From a virus: a stretch of 38,938 bases of DNA. Position numbers and translations under genes: made by a program. Where the stretch lies: the IMG/VR virus record IMGVR_UViG_3300047284_000055, positions 1 through 38,938 of that record. The stretch is one strand, 5' to 3'. The notes below the pieces were generated by a model. That model did no database searches, was not told the DNA's origin, and worked only from the letters and a program-made list of their open reading frames with translations. Of this stretch, positions 4,450-36,710 are shown piece by piece (the stretch's first letter is position 1; every line of letters starts with the position of its first letter).

Positions 4450-4707
4450 ATGCCTAACGCCAGCAGCACACTAATGACGATTTTCCGTGAGTCTAGTGAG
4501 CCTTTAACGATGCATGAATTGTTACCAATGGCTGAATCATTGAAAAAGAATGAAATTTCAATGGCACTTTGTTACCTGCTAAAGCAAGGATATTTGTCAC
4601 GAGAAAAAGTAGAGCGTCGCGGTACTCGCGGACGCAAAGAAATATGGTTGTACACATTTCATGCTGATCGTCAAAAGGAACAACACAATGAACCAAATGC
4701 AAATTGA
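4450..4707 (+). CDS. Winged-helix DNA-binding protein
   Basis: The 85-residue protein has a winged helix-turn-helix pattern: TMHELLPMAESLKKNEISMALCYLLKQGYL forms helices 2-3, and REKVERRGTRGRKEIWLYTF the basic wing. It resembles small phage or MarR-like regulators. I chose the ATG at 4450 because the frame upstream runs through the terminator stem. No separate Shine-Dalgarno site exists; the terminator arm CGGGGGA, six T residues away, may serve. The end overlaps the ParB-like start (4688). It is the best candidate for a transcription regulator in the window and may act on the TAATACT repeats next to its own start. Confidence 0.7.
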   Translation: MPNASSTLMTIFRESSEPLTMHELLPMAESLKKNEISMALCYLLKQGYLSREKVERRGTRGRKEIWLYTFHADRQKEQHNEPNAN

Positions 4708-5293
4708 ATATAAACCTACTGCTGACCTAATACCATACGCAAGAAATAGTAGGACGCATACAGACGCACAAATCAATCAAATTGCTGCGTCTATCCGTGA
4801 ATTTGGTTTCCGTGTGCCAGTGTTAGTAACTGGTGACAACACGATCATTGCCGGTCATGGTCGCGTACTGGCTGCGTTGAAACTTGGTATTGATGAAATA
4901 CCTACAGTAGATGGTAGTGATATGGATGACATACAGCGCAGGATGTACGTCATCGCTGATAACAAAATCGCACTGAATGCAGGATGGGATGAAGAAGTAT
5001 TAATGCTAGAAATTGAAGATTTGCGTAGTCTTGGTGCGGATATTGAATTGCTCGCATTTGATCCTTCAGAAATTAAAAAGAACGACATTGATTATTCAGT
5101 ATTAGATGACCACAACATTGATGACCAAATTGATGACATGGCGAAAGGTGTCCGCAAAGCAATACAAATTGAATTTGAGGTAGATCATTATGACGAAGCA
5201 TTTGAACTGGTGAAGTATTGGCGTGATGAAGGCGCATATGTGGGATACATGATTATGGATTTCCTTCGCAAAGAAAAAGCGAAAGTGCAATGA
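4688..5293 (+). CDS. ParB-like N-terminal domain protein
   Basis: From the ATG at 4688 (AAGGA eight bases upstream) the protein has 201 residues. Residues 8-130 form a ParB/sulfiredoxin-type domain: DLIPYARNSRTHTDAQINQIAASI, FRVPVLVTGDNTIIAGHGRVLAALKLG with the box GHGRVLAA (56-63), and MYVIADNKIALNAGWDEE. In many phages this domain is fused to a DNA methylase; here no methylase follows, and the C-terminus is a 70-residue acidic and aromatic tail. The stop overlaps the glycosyltransferase start (ATGA), so it belongs to the predicted DNA-modification operon. Nuclease, NTPase or targeting activity are all possible for the fold. Confidence 0.82.
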   Translation: MNQMQIEYKPTADLIPYARNSRTHTDAQINQIAASIREFGFRVPVLVTGDNTIIAGHGRVLAALKLGIDEIPTVDGSDMDDIQRRMYVIADNKIALNAGWDEEVLMLEIEDLRSLGADIELLAFDPSEIKKNDIDYSVLDDHNIDDQIDDMAKGVRKAIQIEFEVDHYDEAFELVKYWRDEGAYVGYMIMDFLRKEKAKVQ

Positions 5294-6120
5294 AGGTATT
5301 TACCTTCTTTTATAACCGATTTGAAAACGCTTCAACGTCTATCGCGTTGGAAGCAAACAGCATTCCTCATTATGTGTTGATTCATAAACCAGAAGATCAC
5401 GATAAATTTCGTCGGCATAATACCTGTCGTGGTACAGCAGTAGTAACAAATAATGGCAAAGGATTGGCATACCAGCGGAATAGCGCACTAGACATGATGA
5501 ACACTGGCGAGTGGGCAGTTTTCATGTGCGATGATTTTATGAAAATAAAAAGTATGCCGGAGGAATGGATACTTAGTGGCAATCAAGAATTGCCGATTAA
5601 CTTTGCTAACCAAAATAAATTTAGGCTGAAGGAAAATGGATTTACGCTAAAAAAAATGTTTGCGTTGTTTCCGCGGTTGATAGAACTGGCTGAACGTAAT
5701 CACATTCATTTGGTTGGATTTGGTTTGCACGACAATCCTATGAATCTGCGAAAAAAATTTAATCATCGTGGATTGGCTGATGGACGGTTCTGGTTGGTAA
5801 AAAAAGCAGGATACAAATTTGATACCAACGCGCAGTTAATTGATGATGTGGCGTGGACAGCAGAAAATTTAGTGCGTCACCGAAACGTTCTGGTACTTAA
5901 TTGGTTAGTTCCTTATTTCCAGCGTTATACAGCAGGAGGGTTCGGCAGCACTGCGGAACGTCTGGCTTTGCGTCGTAAAGAATGTGCTTATCTTGCCAAC
6001 AAATACAATCCATTGGTAAAGATCGCTCAGAAACCTGGATGGGAAAGCGGAACTCACATTCGTTTGTTTGGAACTGATAAAAATATCGAAATCGTAAGAA
6101 AGCGGAACGGATTGCTATGA
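5290..6120 (+). CDS. Glycosyltransferase, TET-associated (TAGT) type
   Basis: The 276-residue protein looks like a GT-A-type glycosyltransferase: MKVFTFFYNRF and an IPHYVLIH strand, then NGKGLAYQRNSALD (55-68) and the acidic metal and nucleotide-sugar site FMCDDF (78-83). A second half has GLADGRFWLVKKAGYKFD and DDVAW. This pattern fits the TET/JBP-associated glycosyltransferases described from phage gene neighbourhoods, and it overlaps a TET/JBP-type oxygenase by four bases (6117). The predicted job is transfer of a sugar to hydroxymethylated bases in phage DNA. A glycosyltransferase acting on another acceptor remains possible. There is no signal peptide or membrane segment, so it should be cytoplasmic. 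Confidence 0.72.
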   Translation: MKVFTFFYNRFENASTSIALEANSIPHYVLIHKPEDHDKFRRHNTCRGTAVVTNNGKGLAYQRNSALDMMNTGEWAVFMCDDFMKIKSMPEEWILSGNQELPINFANQNKFRLKENGFTLKKMFALFPRLIELAERNHIHLVGFGLHDNPMNLRKKFNHRGLADGRFWLVKKAGYKFDTNAQLIDDVAWTAENLVRHRNVLVLNWLVPYFQRYTAGGFGSTAERLALRRKECAYLANKYNPLVKIAQKPGWESGTHIRLFGTDKNIEIVRKRNGLL

Positions 6121-6890
6121 AAACATTGGAATTAGTGTTGCAACCGCATAACGTGAAGATTGGCGATGTAACGCCAGACTACGAACCAAATATTACTGAG
6201 GATACGCTTTTTGTGTCCGATGGAGAGGTAGTTGGTTTTTATTTAAAGCAAATTCCTGAAAGCGTACGGAAGTATGTAGAAATAGCAAATGCAGAACTGT
6301 TAAGTGATAGAGTTCCTAAATCAGAAATGCGTAGATCAAGCGGATTACGCAATGAAGAAGCAGAGGTAAGGCAATATTCAACGATTATTGGCTCATGTGC
6401 GCCTAAACCGCATATGAAGCGTCCTTATCCAGCGATTTCTAGTGTCCATAATGTCAAATCAGCGCAAACATTTATCAAAGCGATGCTCCTCGCCTGTCAT
6501 GAGTCCGAGAATCTCATTCGAGAAATCGCGCCATCGGTTTTCGAGCGGCAGGAAAAAATTATCAATGAGAAGGTTCCACCAAAATGGCGATTCGGTAGAT
6601 TGTTCACCAGCAGCATTTCCAATTTCAACATTGCAGCAAACTATCATCGAGACGCAGGGAATCTGGAAGGATGTGCCAATGTCATCATCGCCAAAAAATC
6701 TCACGCTCGGGGAGGTAATACTACGATTCCTGACTATTCCGCTACTGTTGACAGTGCCGATAATTCGATGCTTGTATATCCTGCTTGGAGGAATGTACAT
6801 GGTGTTACGCCAATTGTTCCTTTGCGTGAAGATGGTTATCGCAATTCTTTGGTCTTTTATCCGTTGAAAGCGTTTACCGCGTATGAGTGA
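6117..6890 (+). CDS. TET/JBP-type 2-oxoglutarate Fe(II) dioxygenase
   Basis: The 257-residue protein has the iron-binding pattern of TET/JBP oxygenases: H177-R-D179 in NYHRDAGN, H228 in RNVHGV, and R242 in GYRNSLVFY for 2-oxoglutarate. Between them lie ANVIIAKKSHARGG and ADNSMLVYPAW, matching strands of the double-stranded beta-helix. Phage members oxidise the 5-methyl group of 5-methylcytosine, and JBP members that of thymine. Residues 1-100 are a poorly conserved N-terminal region. It overlaps the glycosyltransferase upstream and the Cys-rich gene downstream by a few bases, so one operon. I see no cytosine-5 methyltransferase gene in the window, so the substrate base is open. Confidence 0.82.
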   Translation: MKTLELVLQPHNVKIGDVTPDYEPNITEDTLFVSDGEVVGFYLKQIPESVRKYVEIANAELLSDRVPKSEMRRSSGLRNEEAEVRQYSTIIGSCAPKPHMKRPYPAISSVHNVKSAQTFIKAMLLACHESENLIREIAPSVFERQEKIINEKVPPKWRFGRLFTSSISNFNIAANYHRDAGNLEGCANVIIAKKSHARGGNTTIPDYSATVDSADNSMLVYPAWRNVHGVTPIVPLREDGYRNSLVFYPLKAFTAYE

Positions 6891-7146
6891 TTGTAAATAT
6901 TGCGAAACTGCAAAGGACAGGATATGCGGAAGTTACAATTTTGGGTGTCACGGATGCCGAGAGCGCGTGTTATTCGATGAGCCATGCAAAATTGTCAGGA
7001 AAGCATTAGCGGCACGAATTATTATTTGGGGTGAAATACCGGATTGGCAGCGTGAACCGTCTTGCGGATGTAAATACAAATGCAAACGAATGGAGGCCAT
7101 TGAAGGCGCGAGAATAGAAACGTCTATTCCGTATAACCGGAGGTAG
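6883..7146 (+). CDS. Cys-rich small phage protein
   Basis: The 87-residue protein has nine Cys: CKYCETAKDRIC at the N-terminus, GCHGCRERVL near residue 20, DEPC, and CGCKYKC near residue 62. The blocks GCHGCRERV, WGEIPDWQREP and CGCKYKCKR recur in small zinc-binding-looking phage proteins of unknown function. It starts eight bases inside the dioxygenase gene and has CCGGAGG of the next gene at its end. Its place in the modification operon may be meaningful or merely positional. Confidence 0.7.
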   Translation: MSDCKYCETAKDRICGSYNFGCHGCRERVLFDEPCKIVRKALAARIIIWGEIPDWQREPSCGCKYKCKRMEAIEGARIETSIPYNRR

Positions 7147-8220: not shown

Positions 8221-8694
8221 ATGGGAAATAAAAAACCGCCGGAACTCCATTTGATTGATGGAACGACTCCACGCAAGGGAATGCCTTCCTCACTTCCGGA
8301 ATCCATCAAAAAAAGAATTCCACGCGCTGAGTGGATGGACAGACCGGAACAATGGAACAAAGAAAAATTCATAGAAGAAACTTCCGAGTTTTTGTATTCC
8401 GTTTATGGAATTGGCAACGATCAGGATAAGCACACGCTGGCGATGCTTGCGGATCATATTGACTTGTATGTGAAATGCACAAAAGGAATTGCAAAAAATG
8501 GTGTCATCACACAATTCAATAATGGGCAAACGGTAGGACCGAATCCGTATATCCCAATACGGAATAAGACCATGACAATCATTATCCAGTTGATGAATGA
8601 ACTTGGACTAACTCCGCGTAGCCGATTGTCCGCTGGCAAAATGGAACAGGAAAGTCCGGTTGCTCAGTTCCTTAAAGGACCACTAGCGCAATGA
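8221..8694 (+). CDS. terS: Terminase small subunit, P27 family
   Basis: The 157-residue protein begins MGNKKPPELHLIDGTTPRKG, a typical start of P27-family small terminases. It has a helical DNA-binding region and ends with MNELGLTPRSRLSAGK, the family's conserved LGLTP-SR motif. It recognises the packaging start and loads the large subunit. GGAAGGA precedes the ATG, and the stop overlaps the large terminase start by four bases. Confidence 0.9.
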   Translation: MGNKKPPELHLIDGTTPRKGMPSSLPESIKKRIPRAEWMDRPEQWNKEKFIEETSEFLYSVYGIGNDQDKHTLAMLADHIDLYVKCTKGIAKNGVITQFNNGQTVGPNPYIPIRNKTMTIIIQLMNELGLTPRSRLSAGKMEQESPVAQFLKGPLAQ

Positions 8695-10364
8695 ACTGGC
8701 AAGACGGTGTTGTATATGCGCGTGATGTAGCGAAAGGCGAAATTAACGTATGCCGCGATGTTCGTTTAGCCTGTCAGCGTTTTATCAATCAATATGAGAA
8801 TCAAGAATGGCAATACGTTTTTGATGAGCGGTTTCCACAACACGTTTTAAATTTTGCCGCTACGCTAGTTCACACCAAAGGACCACAAGCCGGTCAACCT
8901 GTAGTATTAGAACCATTCCAAATTCTTTTAATTTGTGCGGTATATGGTTTTCGCAAAAAAAGCGATTTAACCGCAAGGATGGTCACAGACGTAATACTAT
9001 TTATTCCACGCAAAGCAGGTAAGTCAACGCTGACAGCAGCAATCGCATTATATGAATTGTTATGCGGGGAAGCAGGTGCAGAAGTATTTACATTGGCAAC
9101 CAGCAGGGAACAGGCAACCATTGTGTTCGACGCTGCAAAAGGGTTTGTTGAAAATATGCCTACAGAACTGGCAAATATGTTCAACCCAAGTAAATACAGT
9201 ATTAGCAAACGCGGTGACACCCAAACGATGTTTAAAGCATTAAGCCGTGACACCAAAAAAACGGGTGACGGTAAAAACCCTTCATGCGTCATCATTGACG
9301 AAGCAGCACAAATCATTGATCGCAACAGTATAGAAGTATTACATTCCGGTATGGTGGCGCGGAAAAATCCTTTGCGGATTTACATCACGACTGCTTCATT
9401 TACCAAAGACACTAAGTTTTACGAAGATTATTCTTTGTTTCGTGCGCGATTGATGGGCGAAGCAGAAGACAATCCGCGATGGTTTGGTTTGCTGTATGGG
9501 CTGGACATGGGCGACGATTGGCGCGACCCAAACATATGGGCAAAAGCAAACCCGATGCATGGCATTAGTATTTTTGAAGATTCAATTTTTCAAAGAGCAG
9601 AAGAAGCCAAGCATAAGCCAGCAGCGTTAAATGAATTCTTATGTAAGACGCTAAACATCTTTGTTTCTGCCAACGCAGCATGGATTGATCGCGCTCATTG
9701 GGATGACTCAAAAAGTATTATCACTGTTCCACGTGAAACGCCAGAAGCAGTATTTATTGGATTTGACTTGGCAGCGACCCGTGATTTGAATGCAGTTTGT
9801 ACTTTAAAACGATATGGCGAAATGGATTATGAAGCGCATTGGAAATTCTTTTTGCCAGAAGAAGGATTAAACCTAATACCTAAACATTATGCGGATATAT
9901 TCCGCGTTGCAATAAAAAGTAATATATTAAAAATTACGGAAGGTAACGTAATGGATGATCGTGAAATTTCCGAATACATAAAACAAGAATGCGGGAAGTA
10001 TGATGTAAAAGAAGTAGGATACGATGCTTATAATGCGGCATCTTTAGTTGCTCGCTTGCATGATGAAGGAATACCTGTTAAAAAGGTTGGACAAGGCATG
10101 GCGGTTTTAAATAATCCGTCAAAATATGTTGAGAAATTGATTCTAAACAATAAAATAAAACATGACGGAAATCCATTTCTTGGCTGGCAATTAGGCAATT
10201 GCGAAGTCTTTGCAGATGTAAACGGAAATATTAAAATCCGCAAAAATGAAGCGGATAAAGCAGCAAAAGTTGACGGAATAATTGCATTAATCATTGCTGC
10301 ACATTGTTCGCTGGACAATCCATTCGTTTCAAATAGTTTTGGTTTCAGAAGTTTTCAGATGTAA
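8691..10364 (+). CDS. terL: Terminase large subunit
   Basis: The 557-residue packaging motor has an ATPase domain with Walker A PRKAGKST (106-113) and Walker B CVIIDEA (199-205). The RNase H-like nuclease domain has its acidic triad at D359 (GFDLA), D445 (GYDAY) and D528 (KVDGI). Length and motifs fit the HK97-type large terminase family. It pumps DNA into the prohead through the portal and cuts concatemers. A 24-base gap separates it from the portal gene. Confidence 0.97.
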   Translation: MNWQDGVVYARDVAKGEINVCRDVRLACQRFINQYENQEWQYVFDERFPQHVLNFAATLVHTKGPQAGQPVVLEPFQILLICAVYGFRKKSDLTARMVTDVILFIPRKAGKSTLTAAIALYELLCGEAGAEVFTLATSREQATIVFDAAKGFVENMPTELANMFNPSKYSISKRGDTQTMFKALSRDTKKTGDGKNPSCVIIDEAAQIIDRNSIEVLHSGMVARKNPLRIYITTASFTKDTKFYEDYSLFRARLMGEAEDNPRWFGLLYGLDMGDDWRDPNIWAKANPMHGISIFEDSIFQRAEEAKHKPAALNEFLCKTLNIFVSANAAWIDRAHWDDSKSIITVPRETPEAVFIGFDLAATRDLNAVCTLKRYGEMDYEAHWKFFLPEEGLNLIPKHYADIFRVAIKSNILKITEGNVMDDREISEYIKQECGKYDVKEVGYDAYNAASLVARLHDEGIPVKKVGQGMAVLNNPSKYVEKLILNNKIKHDGNPFLGWQLGNCEVFADVNGNIKIRKNEADKAAKVDGIIALIIAAHCSLDNPFVSNSFGFRSFQM

Positions 10365-12720: not shown

Positions 12721-14079
12721 ATGTCTATTGAAAAAATTCTAGAAAAAGTTGACGCTATTGAAGCGTCAAACATCGCCAAAATTGAGGAAGTAAAAACTCA
12801 AATGGTGGAAGATGTAAACAAAACTGTTGATGCAGTTAAGTCTGAATTGGCAGAACAAGTAGCAGCACTAGAAGCAAAAGTCGCTTCTATCGGTTCGCCT
12901 GAAATTATTCGTGCGCCAACCAAAACAGTTCGTGGTGATGTAAACCGTCGCGTTCGTGAACAACTCGCAGCGTTCACAAAACAAGGTGGCAACAAACTAC
13001 ATCAAGAAATCAAACTGTGGGAAAGCGAAGATCAACACGCAGCATACATGACCGAAGCATCAACGCTGACTGGTTCTGGTGCTGGCATTGGTGGTCGTAC
13101 TGCGTATGATCCAGTGTTCCATAAACTGCGTTTGCTAAACCCAATGCGAGGCGTTTCCCGTCAAGTTTCTACTGACGGTTCTACGTATCAGTTCCGCGCT
13201 AAAACCGGCGACGCTGGTGCAGCATGGGGATATGCAATTCAGAACAACGGCGCAGCAACAACCGAAGCAACGTCGATTTGGCAACTGAATATGCAAGATA
13301 TTAATGTCCAGTTCCCAATTCGTACCGCAGCACTAGATGATATTGATGGTCTGGAAGCAAATGTAGTTGACGATATGCTGCAAGAATTCTCGCAGCAAGA
13401 AGGTCTGTCCATGATCCTTAACAACGATCAGGCTGGATCAACAACAACCGCATACGGCGCAACAAATGGTTTGCGTGGTCTAAACCAATATCCGGGCGCA
13501 AATGCTTCCTACACTGGCGGCACTATTTCTACTGCTTCGTTTGGTAGTAGCGGAACTGCGTCAACCGATGGTTTGCATAACATTGCTACCTATGACCAAA
13601 TCACAACCAATGCAGCAGGTTCGGCAAACAATGTGACTTTTGCAGATATTGTGAACTTCCTACATAACTTGCCACAGCAATATTGGAGTGCAGGAAATAA
13701 ATTTATCATTAATCCAATTATGCTTGCTGGTATTCGTGGTTTGGTTGATGACAACGGCACTCCAGTATTTGAGCGTATGTCGCCATTGGTGTACGAAGGT
13801 ATTGTTGGCAAACTGATGGGTTACGATGTTGTCGTTAACTCCTATCTGGAAAGTCCTATTGCTGCTGGTGCATCTCCCGGAACCAATAGCCAATATCCAA
13901 TGTACTTTGGTGACTTTACGCGTGGTCATACCATTGTTGATCGTTTGAGCATGGTGTTGCGTCGTTATGAACAGACACAGCCCGGATTCATTACCTTCTA
14001 TGGTGAGAAGCGTCTGGCTACGTCTGTGGTTGATCCGTTTAGCATTATCCGTTATCGCTCAACGGCGACTGGTGCTTAA
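12721..14079 (+). CDS. Major capsid protein 1, with delta domain
   Basis: The 452-residue HK97-fold capsid protein has an N-terminal delta (scaffold) region of about 105 residues with heptad-like coiled coil (IEEVKTQMVEDVNKTV; LAEQVAALEAKV). The shell domain starts near LTGSGAGIGGRT (116-127). Shared capsid signatures are AALDDIDGLEANVVDDM, EFSQQEG, NNDQAGSTTTAYG, NGLRGL and the C-terminal PGFITFYGEKR. The delta domain would be cut off by the protease encoded upstream. A close paralogue without the delta domain follows (14135). This is probably the main shell subunit. Confidence 0.95.
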   Translation: MSIEKILEKVDAIEASNIAKIEEVKTQMVEDVNKTVDAVKSELAEQVAALEAKVASIGSPEIIRAPTKTVRGDVNRRVREQLAAFTKQGGNKLHQEIKLWESEDQHAAYMTEASTLTGSGAGIGGRTAYDPVFHKLRLLNPMRGVSRQVSTDGSTYQFRAKTGDAGAAWGYAIQNNGAATTEATSIWQLNMQDINVQFPIRTAALDDIDGLEANVVDDMLQEFSQQEGLSMILNNDQAGSTTTAYGATNGLRGLNQYPGANASYTGGTISTASFGSSGTASTDGLHNIATYDQITTNAAGSANNVTFADIVNFLHNLPQQYWSAGNKFIINPIMLAGIRGLVDDNGTPVFERMSPLVYEGIVGKLMGYDVVVNSYLESPIAAGASPGTNSQYPMYFGDFTRGHTIVDRLSMVLRRYEQTQPGFITFYGEKRLATSVVDPFSIIRYRSTATGA

Positions 14080-14110: not shown

Positions 14111-14134
14111 GTATAACTATTGGGGAAAGATCAC

Positions 14135-15157
14135 ATGAGTGCAAATCAAAAAATTCTAGACGGAATCAAATTGTCTATACGCGAAAATAAACGCGTGACA
14201 ATTGATCTGAGTGAGGCATCTTCCTTGACCGGATCGGGTCTTGATATTGGTGGTCGCACTCATTTTGACGATGTGTTTGCAAAACTTCGTTTGCAAAATC
14301 CATTTCGTATGGGCGCAAGAAACATCAAAGTGCCAAATAATTCAGCGGTTCAATTTGTTGCAAAAACAGGTAACGCAACAAATCAAGCAAATCCGTGGGG
14401 ATATACATTTACGCCGAACACAGGTACGCCAAATACCGCAACGTCTATTTGGCAGTTGCCAACGCGTGTTATTACCGCACAATTGCCAATTCGTACCGCA
14501 GCATTGGATGACATTAACGGATTACAAGCGGAATTGATTGAAGATATGACGCTGGAATTTTCTCAGCAAGAAGCATATTCAATGGCACAAAATAACGATC
14601 AAGCCGGAAGTGTAACAACTACATACGGTGGCACTAATGGTCTGCGCGGTTTAGATTTTTATAATTCAGGAGCGTCAGCAGCGTTTGGCAATAGTGGTAC
14701 TGCTATGACAGATGGTTTGCATCAAATTAGTACAGTATCGCTTGGAGGATTGCCGCCAACTTATAACAAAATTGTGGATATTGCTAACGCGTTGCCTTCG
14801 CAATACTGGTCATTGCCAACAACTGCATGGCATATGTCACCAACAATGATTCAAACACTACGCCAGTTGAAAGACAATTCTGGATTGCCGTTGTTCCTTG
14901 ATATTGGTGAAGCATATGAAGAAGGCGCATTGGGTTCTATCTTTGGTTGGCCTGTAATTCCAAATGCATATCTTAGTTCTGCATTCCCAATCTATTTGGC
15001 TAATTGGGAAAAGTTTATGACTATTGCCGATGTGGAAGAAATGGCAATACAAATGATGGATCAAACTGCGCCGGGATTCATTACCATGTACGCCGAAAAA
15101 CGGATGGTATCTACAGTACGTGATCCGTTTGCTGGTGTTCGTGCAAGCGCAGCGTAA
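14135..15157 (+). CDS. Capsid protein 2, paralogue without delta domain
   Basis: From the ATG at 14135 the protein has 340 residues and aligns by eye along its length with the shell part of the 12721 product. Matches include LTGSGLDIGGRT (31-42), FAKLRLQNPFR, LPIRTAALDDINGLQAEL, EFSQQEA, NNDQAGSVTTTYGGTNGLRGL (in two overlapping pieces), QYWS and PGFITMYAEKRMVS. It lacks about 85 N-terminal residues, meaning the delta domain, so it needs no such maturation. A specialised role, such as pentamers or the portal-proximal shell, is inferred by analogy with T4 gp23/gp24. The N-terminal MSANQKILDGIKLSIRENKRV is unique. Confidence 0.9.
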   Translation: MSANQKILDGIKLSIRENKRVTIDLSEASSLTGSGLDIGGRTHFDDVFAKLRLQNPFRMGARNIKVPNNSAVQFVAKTGNATNQANPWGYTFTPNTGTPNTATSIWQLPTRVITAQLPIRTAALDDINGLQAELIEDMTLEFSQQEAYSMAQNNDQAGSVTTTYGGTNGLRGLDFYNSGASAAFGNSGTAMTDGLHQISTVSLGGLPPTYNKIVDIANALPSQYWSLPTTAWHMSPTMIQTLRQLKDNSGLPLFLDIGEAYEEGALGSIFGWPVIPNAYLSSAFPIYLANWEKFMTIADVEEMAIQMMDQTAPGFITMYAEKRMVSTVRDPFAGVRASAA

Positions 15158-21955: not shown

Positions 21956-22579
21956 ATGCCTACAACAATGGCAGCGTTAAATAGCGCATCTATTAGACAC
22001 GCTGAATTTATCCGTATCACGGTTAATGGTACGCCATATGCATTTTGCAATGCAGCAACACCAATTACAGTTAGTGGAATTACGTTTACTGGACTATCTG
22101 GTTTGTTAAGTATTGGTGATGTTCAGCGCGATTTGAAAGCAACCAGTGACGATTTTGTATTCGAATTAACTGGAATCGATCCGGCATATATTTCGTTAAT
22201 TTTGTCCGATGATATTAAAGGAAGTATTGTTGAATTTTGGCGCGGATTTTTGGATGCCAACAATCAAATAATCAATACGCCAACATTACAATTTTTTAAG
22301 CGGTATCAAGGAATTGTAAATACCGTATCTATATCTGAAAAATTTGAAGAAGAAATTAGGCAACGAATTGCTACTTGTTCTATTTCTTGCGCGTCATTTA
22401 GACAAATTCTAGAAAACAGAATGGCAGGTATAAAAACAAACCAACAATCATGGCAAGTATTTTATCCTAACGATACATCAATGAACAGAACGGCAATTAT
22501 TCAAAATCAATATTTTGATTTTGGTAAAGAACCAAAAGAGGGTAGTCAGGCAAATCCAGATCAAAATACACAACGATGA
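21956..22579 (+). CDS. Minor tail protein (DUF2163/gpL-like position)
   Basis: The 207-residue protein starts with HAEFIRITVNGTPYAFCNAA and contains YEWRG-type strands (IVEFWRGFLDANNQII). Its Cys pair RQRIATCSISCASFRQI recalls the Cys region of gpL-like tail tip proteins that bind metal. Position before GNAT and J supports a tip-complex role. The last 20 residues are polar and low complexity. The overlap with the next gene is four bases. Confidence 0.68.
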   Translation: MPTTMAALNSASIRHAEFIRITVNGTPYAFCNAATPITVSGITFTGLSGLLSIGDVQRDLKATSDDFVFELTGIDPAYISLILSDDIKGSIVEFWRGFLDANNQIINTPTLQFFKRYQGIVNTVSISEKFEEEIRQRIATCSISCASFRQILENRMAGIKTNQQSWQVFYPNDTSMNRTAIIQNQYFDFGKEPKEGSQANPDQNTQR

Positions 22580-23010
22580 TAAGAATTGCAAACAAATTTG
22601 ATAAGTCAGAAATTATAGAAATGTTGCGAATGTTCAGATCGGAAAGCAACATTGAGCAATACAAAAATTTAGATAACGAAGATTATATAAATTATTTGCT
22701 AGATCAAATCTTAGGTGGGTTAGGTATTATTTATATTGAAGAAGGCAAAGGAATGATTATAGGTTTGATTGCTCCGGTTATTTGGTGCAACAACCATTAT
22801 GCTTTGCATGAATTGGCATGGTATGTAAAACCTGAATATCGCAATACATCAGTTGCTTATAGATTGGTCAAAGCCTACATTGAATTTGGCAAGCAATTAA
22901 AAGAAAATAAAAGAGTGATTTTATTCACGTTGTCAAAATTACCCGACACGCCAAGTTTAAATTATGAAAAACTTGGGTTTAAAAAAATAGACGAAAATTG
23001 GATGCAGTAA
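22576..23010 (+). CDS. GNAT-family acetyltransferase in tail operon
   Basis: The 144-residue protein shows the GNAT fold order: IRIANKFDKSEIIEMLRMF, then GLGIIYIEEGKGMIIGLIAP, HELAWYVKPEYRNTSVAYRLVKAY with the R-x-x-S/A-type acetyl-CoA loop, and a C-terminal FTLSKLPDTP and YEKLGFKKIDENW. Substrate unknown. GNAT genes are found between tail tip genes in several siphophages, so modification of a tip protein or of a host target on entry is possible. It overlaps the genes on both sides by four and one bases. Confidence 0.85.
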   Translation: MIRIANKFDKSEIIEMLRMFRSESNIEQYKNLDNEDYINYLLDQILGGLGIIYIEEGKGMIIGLIAPVIWCNNHYALHELAWYVKPEYRNTSVAYRLVKAYIEFGKQLKENKRVILFTLSKLPDTPSLNYEKLGFKKIDENWMQ

Positions 23011-36249: not shown

Positions 36250-36466
36250 TAAGCATTCTCCTTTTCGTGTCTTTTGTGGCATAGATACTGATACTTGTTT
36301 TGTCTATGCAATTCTTGCAACTCCATCCTCTGCTTGAATTTGGTTTCTTATATCCTCCTTCTATTGGTTGATGTCGTTGGCAGGAAGTACAGAATCTTTT
36401 GCCTTCATTCTTTAACAAATACTCCTGAACTGTTGAGATACCCTTTCCTATCTTTAATTTCATCAT
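36209..36466 (-). CDS. Zinc-finger-like small protein
   Basis: The protein (up to 85 residues) has CTSCQRHQPIEGG and GWSCKNC about 20 residues apart, a treble-clef or zinc-ribbon-type site. The start is uncertain. The ATG at 36466 overlaps the MazG-like gene by 62 bases, whereas a TTG at 36418 would start at LLKNEGKRF with AGGAG only three bases away. The C-terminus is basic. Its role is unknown; such small zinc proteins often bind DNA or replication enzymes. Confidence 0.62.
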   Translation of the reverse strand: MMKLKIGKGISTVQEYLLKNEGKRFCTSCQRHQPIEGGYKKPNSSRGWSCKNCIDKTSISIYATKDTKRRMLNVQATRTDNERKS

Positions 36467-36710
36467 ATGCGTGTTTTAAACATTGTGTTAAATCCAAGTC
36501 TTCAAGAGCAGCAACATTAATAAGGCATACAAGAACATCACCAAGTCCATCGATAATTGCGTCACGGTTTCGCTTGGTAATTGCGTCAGCCAGTTCACCC
36601 ATTTCTGAAAACGCTTTAAGCAATTGAGTTTTGCTATCGCTGTTTTCAATTATGCCTCGCGCCTCAGACCATCTAATTACTTCTAATTCAACTATGTTCC
36701 ATGTCATCAC
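36405..36710 (-). CDS. MazG-like nucleotide pyrophosphohydrolase
   Basis: The 101-residue protein has the MazG metal-binding order: KAFSEMGELADAI with E36 and E39, then IIDGLGDVLVCLINVAA with D54 and D58. MazG enzymes hydrolyse (d)NTPs to monophosphates, and phage forms may lower alarmones or sanitise nucleotides. In a phage predicted to modify its DNA, removal of unwanted nucleotides would fit, which is inference. It overlaps the genes on both sides. Confidence 0.8.
   Translation of the reverse strand: MMTWNIVELEVIRWSEARGIIENSDSKTQLLKAFSEMGELADAITKRNRDAIIDGLGDVLVCLINVAALEDLDLTQCLKHAYDEIKDRKGYLNSSGVFVKE

Follow-up and report, generated by a model that had tools for sequence, protein, structure and literature searches.

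What do three overlapping genes upstream of the terminase genes do for the phage that carries them and, if their products modify DNA, upon which base would they act? The question is raised by a window that is a complete virus record, 38,938 bases long, for which the original prediction had proposed a phage DNA-hypermodification operon encoding a ParB-like protein, a TAGT-like glycosyltransferase and a TET/JBP dioxygenase. That proposal is upheld by family profiles, predicted folds, invariant catalytic residues and the conservation of the operon among relatives. Given the TET fold, the GT-A fold and the invariant residues, we consider it highly likely that the window encodes a TET-plus-glycosyltransferase module for DNA hypermodification. 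Phage TET-dependent hypermodification as such is already known; what this module adds is an exchangeable slot, a setting in which ParB and terminase genes are constant, and the hypothesis that thymine is the base concerned.

The source phage is aquatic. Its TerL is 71% identical (tblastn) to that of Methylophilaceae phage P19250A and its head genes are collinear with those of that phage, from which we infer that the host is probably a related freshwater methylotroph. P19250A, a cultured phage, has no TET match, although TerS, TerL and the head genes run in the same order in both phages; the modification module is thus accessory, and dispensable in this lineage. Adjacent genes at 12721-14079 and 14120-15157, both matching Phage_capsid (PF05065) and present as the same pair in P19250A, are possibly a duplicated major capsid gene. 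Elsewhere in the window, a GNAT acetyltransferase gene (22576-23010) stands amid the tail genes, ahead of that for a 1393-aa tail protein, and a MazG-like pyrophosphatase is encoded on the minus strand close to the replication genes (36405-36710).

All three ORFs of the operon are present where they had been placed (Table 1), with a DUF932 gene on one side of the module and TerS and TerL on the other. Overlaps of four bases had also been described, and these are found at the ParB/glycosyltransferase (ATGA, 5290-5293) and glycosyltransferase/TET (ATGA, 6117-6120) junctions, whereas TET and the following Cys-rich ORF overlap by 8 bases (6883-6890). The ParB-like, glycosyltransferase and TET genes are translationally coupled. 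For the ParB-like protein, the start at 4688 fits the homologs better than that of the longer ORF at 4661.

Table 1. Genes of the predicted modification module and its downstream neighbours in the window.
Feature	Position	Strand	Remarks
ParB-like protein	4688..5293	+	201 aa; 210 aa from the alternative ATG at 4661
TAGT-like GT-A glycosyltransferase (predicted)	5290..6120	+	276 aa; fills exchangeable slot
TET/JBP Fe(II)/2-oxoglutarate dioxygenase (predicted)	6117..6890	+	257 aa
Cys-rich, probably zinc-binding protein	6883..7146	+	87 aa; neighbour, not obligate part
Terminase small subunit (TerS)	8221..8694	+	Pfam PF05119 E 3e-14; downstream landmark
Terminase large subunit (TerL)	8691..10364	+	Pfam PF20441/PF03354; downstream landmark

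The TET assignment draws on profile, fold and motif. The window protein matches Pfam Tet_JBP (PF12851) with E 4e-8 and 33.1 bits against a curated cut-off of 34.9, and its relative in locus L162 exceeds that cut-off with 43.7 bits. An AlphaFold2 model built from 47 sequences of the window family (pLDDT 95.1) has NgTET1 as its best match among solved structures (Z 18.7, 2.7 A over 210 residues), followed by TET2 (Z 18.3), CcTet (16.9) and CMD1 (16.2), while the best non-TET structure reaches Z 13.8. This model makes the 6117 product a TET/JBP dioxygenase with a double-stranded beta-helix fold, lying inside the 2-oxoglutarate dioxygenases, where the original prediction had put it, and nearest to the TETs. 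H177-x-D179, H228 and R242 stand at the positions claimed for them; they do not vary across the 100 rows of the larger set of TET relatives, nor in 52 aligned TETs that include distant proteins only 25-29% identical, and would provide the HxD...H iron site and the Arg for 2-oxoglutarate. A search of PDB sequences with the single TET sequence gave no TET match, whereas the profile search did. The label 'queuine tRNA-ribosyltransferase' that RefSeq and PHROG attach to this family (phrog_6059) was rejected, the fold and motifs being those of TET; proteins so mislabelled occur in NC_020857, NC_020847, NC_051582 and others. In two sets of cellular genomes (398 and 395), searched with Tet_JBP for TETs from outside this family that are paired with a C5-methyltransferase, the sole match was the phage-like centre contig.

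The glycosyltransferase can be placed in a similar way. Pfam TAGT (PF20691) is matched over the full domain with E 1.7e-4 and 22.1 bits against a curated cut-off of 27.5, which the TAGTs found between ParB and TET in L132 and L123 exceed, and PHROG 842, which takes its name from the T6-type DNA glucosyltransferase, is matched with E 5e-7. Its AlphaFold2 model (pLDDT 91.6) has a GT-A/GT2-like fold similar to those of GalNAc-T2, BcsA and TarP, and profile and model together identify the 5290 product as a predicted GT-A (TAGT-like) glycosyltransferase. The FMCDDF site and the GLAYQRNSALD block, to which attention had been drawn earlier, are residues 78-83 and 58-68, respectively; K57, R63, N64, D81, D82 and D186 do not vary among 21 relatives, so that both the DD and the RN of these blocks are retained throughout, and D81 D82 would be the DD/DxD metal motif. 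In tblastn searches, no record of the phages collection matched the glycosyltransferase, and 14 viral contigs matched at 64-78% identity.

Among the matches listed, at least 580 viral stretches encode relatives of the window TET, and we took 112 non-redundant TET loci for a census of what lies between ParB and TET. TAGT is linked to TET in 22 of these loci, in that position. The same place is occupied by an FkbM methyltransferase (PF05050 E 2e-11) in 29 loci and by a P-loop kinase, a class-II glutamine amidotransferase and ADDT, an amino-acid:DNA transferase, in about 22 (PF18724 E 1e-21, PF13522 E 1e-6), to which a GNAT-like gene is sometimes added; other slots hold different glycosyltransferases or nothing. 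Among culturable relatives, Prochlorococcus phages MED4-117 and MED4-184 have the FkbM slot and Mycobacterium phage LilMcDreamy is of the ADDT type. In L106, L113, L116, L131 and L133 the slot is empty, ParB standing directly before TET and the terminase genes following. Because some phages have ParB, TET and terminase genes without any slot gene, ParB plus TET is the core of the module. In 24 of 30 loci, TerL follows TET at a distance of no more than 5 kb. The window glycosyltransferase gene occupies a slot whose putative base-decorating enzymes are repeatedly exchanged among phages, and this exchange of unrelated tailoring enzymes between ParB and TET goes beyond what the original prediction had envisaged.

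How often the slot is exchanged can be counted on a maximum-likelihood TET tree (100 rows, quick method; support is weak for 29 of 97 inner branches). This tree requires no fewer than 29 changes of slot type, compared with a possible minimum of 5 and a mean of 58.9 after shuffling, and the well-supported branches alone force 7 changes for FkbM, 8 for TAGT and 5 for ADDT; a slot type is therefore inherited for a while and then exchanged. Comparison of the window with its nearest relative, L021, whose TET is 89% identical, shows such an exchange directly. Their alignment, at 77.8% nucleotide identity, ends 36 bases short of the ParB stop and resumes 28 bases after the TET start with 74.8% nucleotide identity; between these breaks at the gene junctions, L021 carries an FkbM methyltransferase gene unrelated to the window TAGT.

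A few individual loci deserve mention in their own right. The slot of L123 (7547-9728) holds an NTP-transferase-like gene and a gene with weak RIO/phosphatase matches along with TAGT, a set which suggests that the nucleotide sugar for the DNA adduct may be synthesised by the phage itself. In L005 (2656-3759), gp4 of phage LilMcDreamy matches aspartyl/asparaginyl beta-hydroxylase and constitutes a second oxygenase adjoining TET and ADDT. Synechococcus phage S-CBWM1 (L006) has no ParB at its locus; its TET relative carries a long N-terminal region and is encoded near a glucose-1-phosphate thymidylyltransferase gene.

Two neighbours had been put forward as possible further parts of the system, and they fared differently: the ParB-like protein stands with the operon, whereas the Cys-rich ORF does not. 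ParB lies upstream of TET in 65 of the 66 loci with enough sequence, S-CBWM1 being the sole exception. The window protein matches PHROG 620, a ParB family (E 5e-49), and PHROG 498, a DNA methyltransferase family with a ParB-like domain (E 3e-47), and reaches 21.5 bits, a weak match, for Pfam ParB_N (cut-off 26.3); over residues ~5-138 it shares 50-58% identity with part of proteins that carry a DNA methyltransferase annotation in other phages. The label 'DNA methylase' on the ParB-like gene of the cyanophages was set aside: the similarity to ParB covers 87% of the window protein, and the domain is annotated as DNA methyltransferase in many other phages. Since this domain is used together with DNA-modifying enzymes and is constant beside TET, the ParB-like protein is best read, from its context, as a recruitment or scanning factor on DNA. 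The Cys-rich ORF has a Cys pattern conserved in 9 sequences and no convincing family match in Pfam or PHROG. It is present at only about nine TET loci, lying 3' of TET in the window phage lineage and upstream of ParB in L061, and this patchy occurrence and shifted place led us to reject it as an obligate part; its product is probably a zinc-binding protein of the window lineage, outside the pathway.

Let us consider whether these genes might do something other than modify DNA. GT-A folds are versatile, and the wall-teichoic-acid enzyme TarP is among the best Foldseek matches, so one could imagine a glycosyltransferase acting on a tail, capsid or host surface and adjoining TET by chance; such an acceptor seems improbable for an enzyme whose Pfam family is the TET-associated one, which 22 non-redundant loci carry between ParB and TET, and which is replaced at the same spot by other base-tailoring enzymes. 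Decay of the module into non-functional remnants, to which the dispensability of TET in P19250A might point, is hardly credible when the frames are intact, the active sites invariant and dN far below dS among relatives (for TET against L021, dN 0.07 and dS 1.8).

If DNA is the target as we propose, which base would be oxidized? H177, D179, H228 and R242 are identical across all slot types, and these shared TET residues suggest that all slot types may feed on one oxidation product. C5-methyltransferase (PF00145) has no match in the window, and 9 of 9 isolates with a related TET and 7 of 7 ADDT-slot contigs are likewise without one; among 37 TET-family contigs it is found in 9, where slots hold TAGT or FkbM or are empty, and absent from 28, an absence that weighs less than that in the isolates as many of these contigs are incomplete. 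A dUMP hydroxymethylase/thymidylate synthase (PF00303) as the source of 5hmU was rejected, with no match in 16 of 16 genomes. The slot ADDT is homologous to proteins of Salmonella, Escherichia and Dickeya phages, which from this list of hosts we read as ViI-group phages, and in that group the hypermodified thymidines derive from 5hmdU (PMC6449724). The lack of C5-methyltransferase in the window, isolates and ADDT-slot contigs, the thymidine-hypermodification homologs, the shared TET residues and the lack of PF00303 matches in the 16 genomes together favour oxidation of thymine to 5hmU over that of 5mC, and thymine is, in our estimation, the probable TET substrate.

The same module would make glycosylated 5-hydroxymethylcytosine at a few methylated sites if its TET acted instead on 5mC provided by the host or by a missing methyltransferase. 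Characterised phage TETs reportedly oxidise 5mC made by a phage C5-methyltransferase (the work of Burke et al. 2021 in PNAS), TET2 and NgTET1, the nearest folds, oxidise 5mC, and the C5-methyltransferase genes of the 9 contigs mentioned above would fit such a scenario, as would N182, which aligns with the Asn of the TET2 HxDxxN motif; this identity with TET2 also led us to reject N182 as a mark of thymine specificity. The absence of C5-methyltransferase from the window, the 9 isolates and the 7 ADDT-slot contigs weighs against it, and so does L250, Leu in 100 of 100 relatives, which replaces the His of TET2 and NgTET1 (RxSLVFYxH/RxGLVYFxH). This His presumably contacts the base, and its replacement is a lead only as regards base preference. 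On balance 5mC is a conceivable but rather unlikely substrate, and we keep to thymine in the scenario below.

We propose that the three genes would constitute a post-replicative base hypermodification module in which the ParB-like protein may recruit or position the enzymes on phage DNA, TET would hydroxylate a 5-methylpyrimidine in the DNA, most likely thymine to give 5-hydroxymethyluracil, and the glycosyltransferase would then add a sugar from a host sugar nucleotide to the hydroxyl. The predicted product is a base-J-like glycosylated base, perhaps made late in infection around packaging. Exchange of the slot gene would alter the adduct, which might be sugar, methyl or amino-acid derived, and the altered adduct would probably escape different nuclease or glycosylase defences. 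Hypermodified bases guard phages such as T4 and ViI against restriction or base-directed defence. We see an even chance that, more broadly, a large clade of phage TETs hydroxylates thymine rather than 5mC, with a swappable slot that tailors the product in close relatives. On this reading the products would be glycosylated, O-methylated (by FkbM; possibly 5-methoxymethyluracil) or amino-acid-derived thymines, and the whole would amount to prokaryotic base-J-like chemistry with interchangeable final steps. Matched phage pairs differing in the tailoring gene offer a natural experiment on adduct chemistry versus host defence and, if thymine is the substrate, the module would be the equivalent in phages of the base J pathway, from which enzymes that write new DNA bases could probably be drawn.

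Lastly, we need to place this module among the systems already described. Phage TET/JBP operons with TAGT, ADDT/aGPT-Pplase and kinase are said to have been predicted as hypermodification systems by Iyer et al. 2013 (NAR; cited in PMC6449724); in comparison with those operons, the present analysis shows the tailoring gene being replaced in situ, with ParB and TET conserved on either side, and uses a tree to count the replacements. The phage TET and C5-methyltransferase clusters of Burke et al. 2021 likewise combine a phage TET/JBP oxygenase with linked tailoring genes, but the window is without the C5-methyltransferase, has ParB as the constant partner and would probably use thymine. The T6 TAGT, a beta-glucosyl-HMC-alpha-glucosyltransferase (PF20691), adds a second glucose onto an already glucosylated base (PMC13216743). 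The window glycosyltransferase probably belongs to the same family, to judge from profile and predicted GT-A fold, although the T6 enzyme acts after another glycosyltransferase and no such first enzyme was found in the window. A 2026 study reported solitary TAGT homologs in 288 of 753 phage genomes and regarded them as potential novel transferases (PMC13216743); the slot finding gives a hypothesis for their function. ViI-like thymidine hypermodification (5-NeOmdU) involves an ADDT homolog and a P-loop kinase, as are also found in the slot of close relatives of the window, but in ViI-like phages 5hmdU is believed to enter the DNA as a nucleotide (PMC6449724), whereas TET here would make 5hmU within DNA, PF00303 being absent from 16 of 16 genomes. 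In the base J pathway of kinetoplastids, JBP1/JBP2 and JGT carry out 2-oxoglutarate-dependent hydroxylation of a DNA base and then its glycosylation (PMC11065753). The window module would follow the same logic of hydroxylation and then glycosylation, in a phage, with thymine, the substrate in the base J pathway, as its predicted substrate as well.
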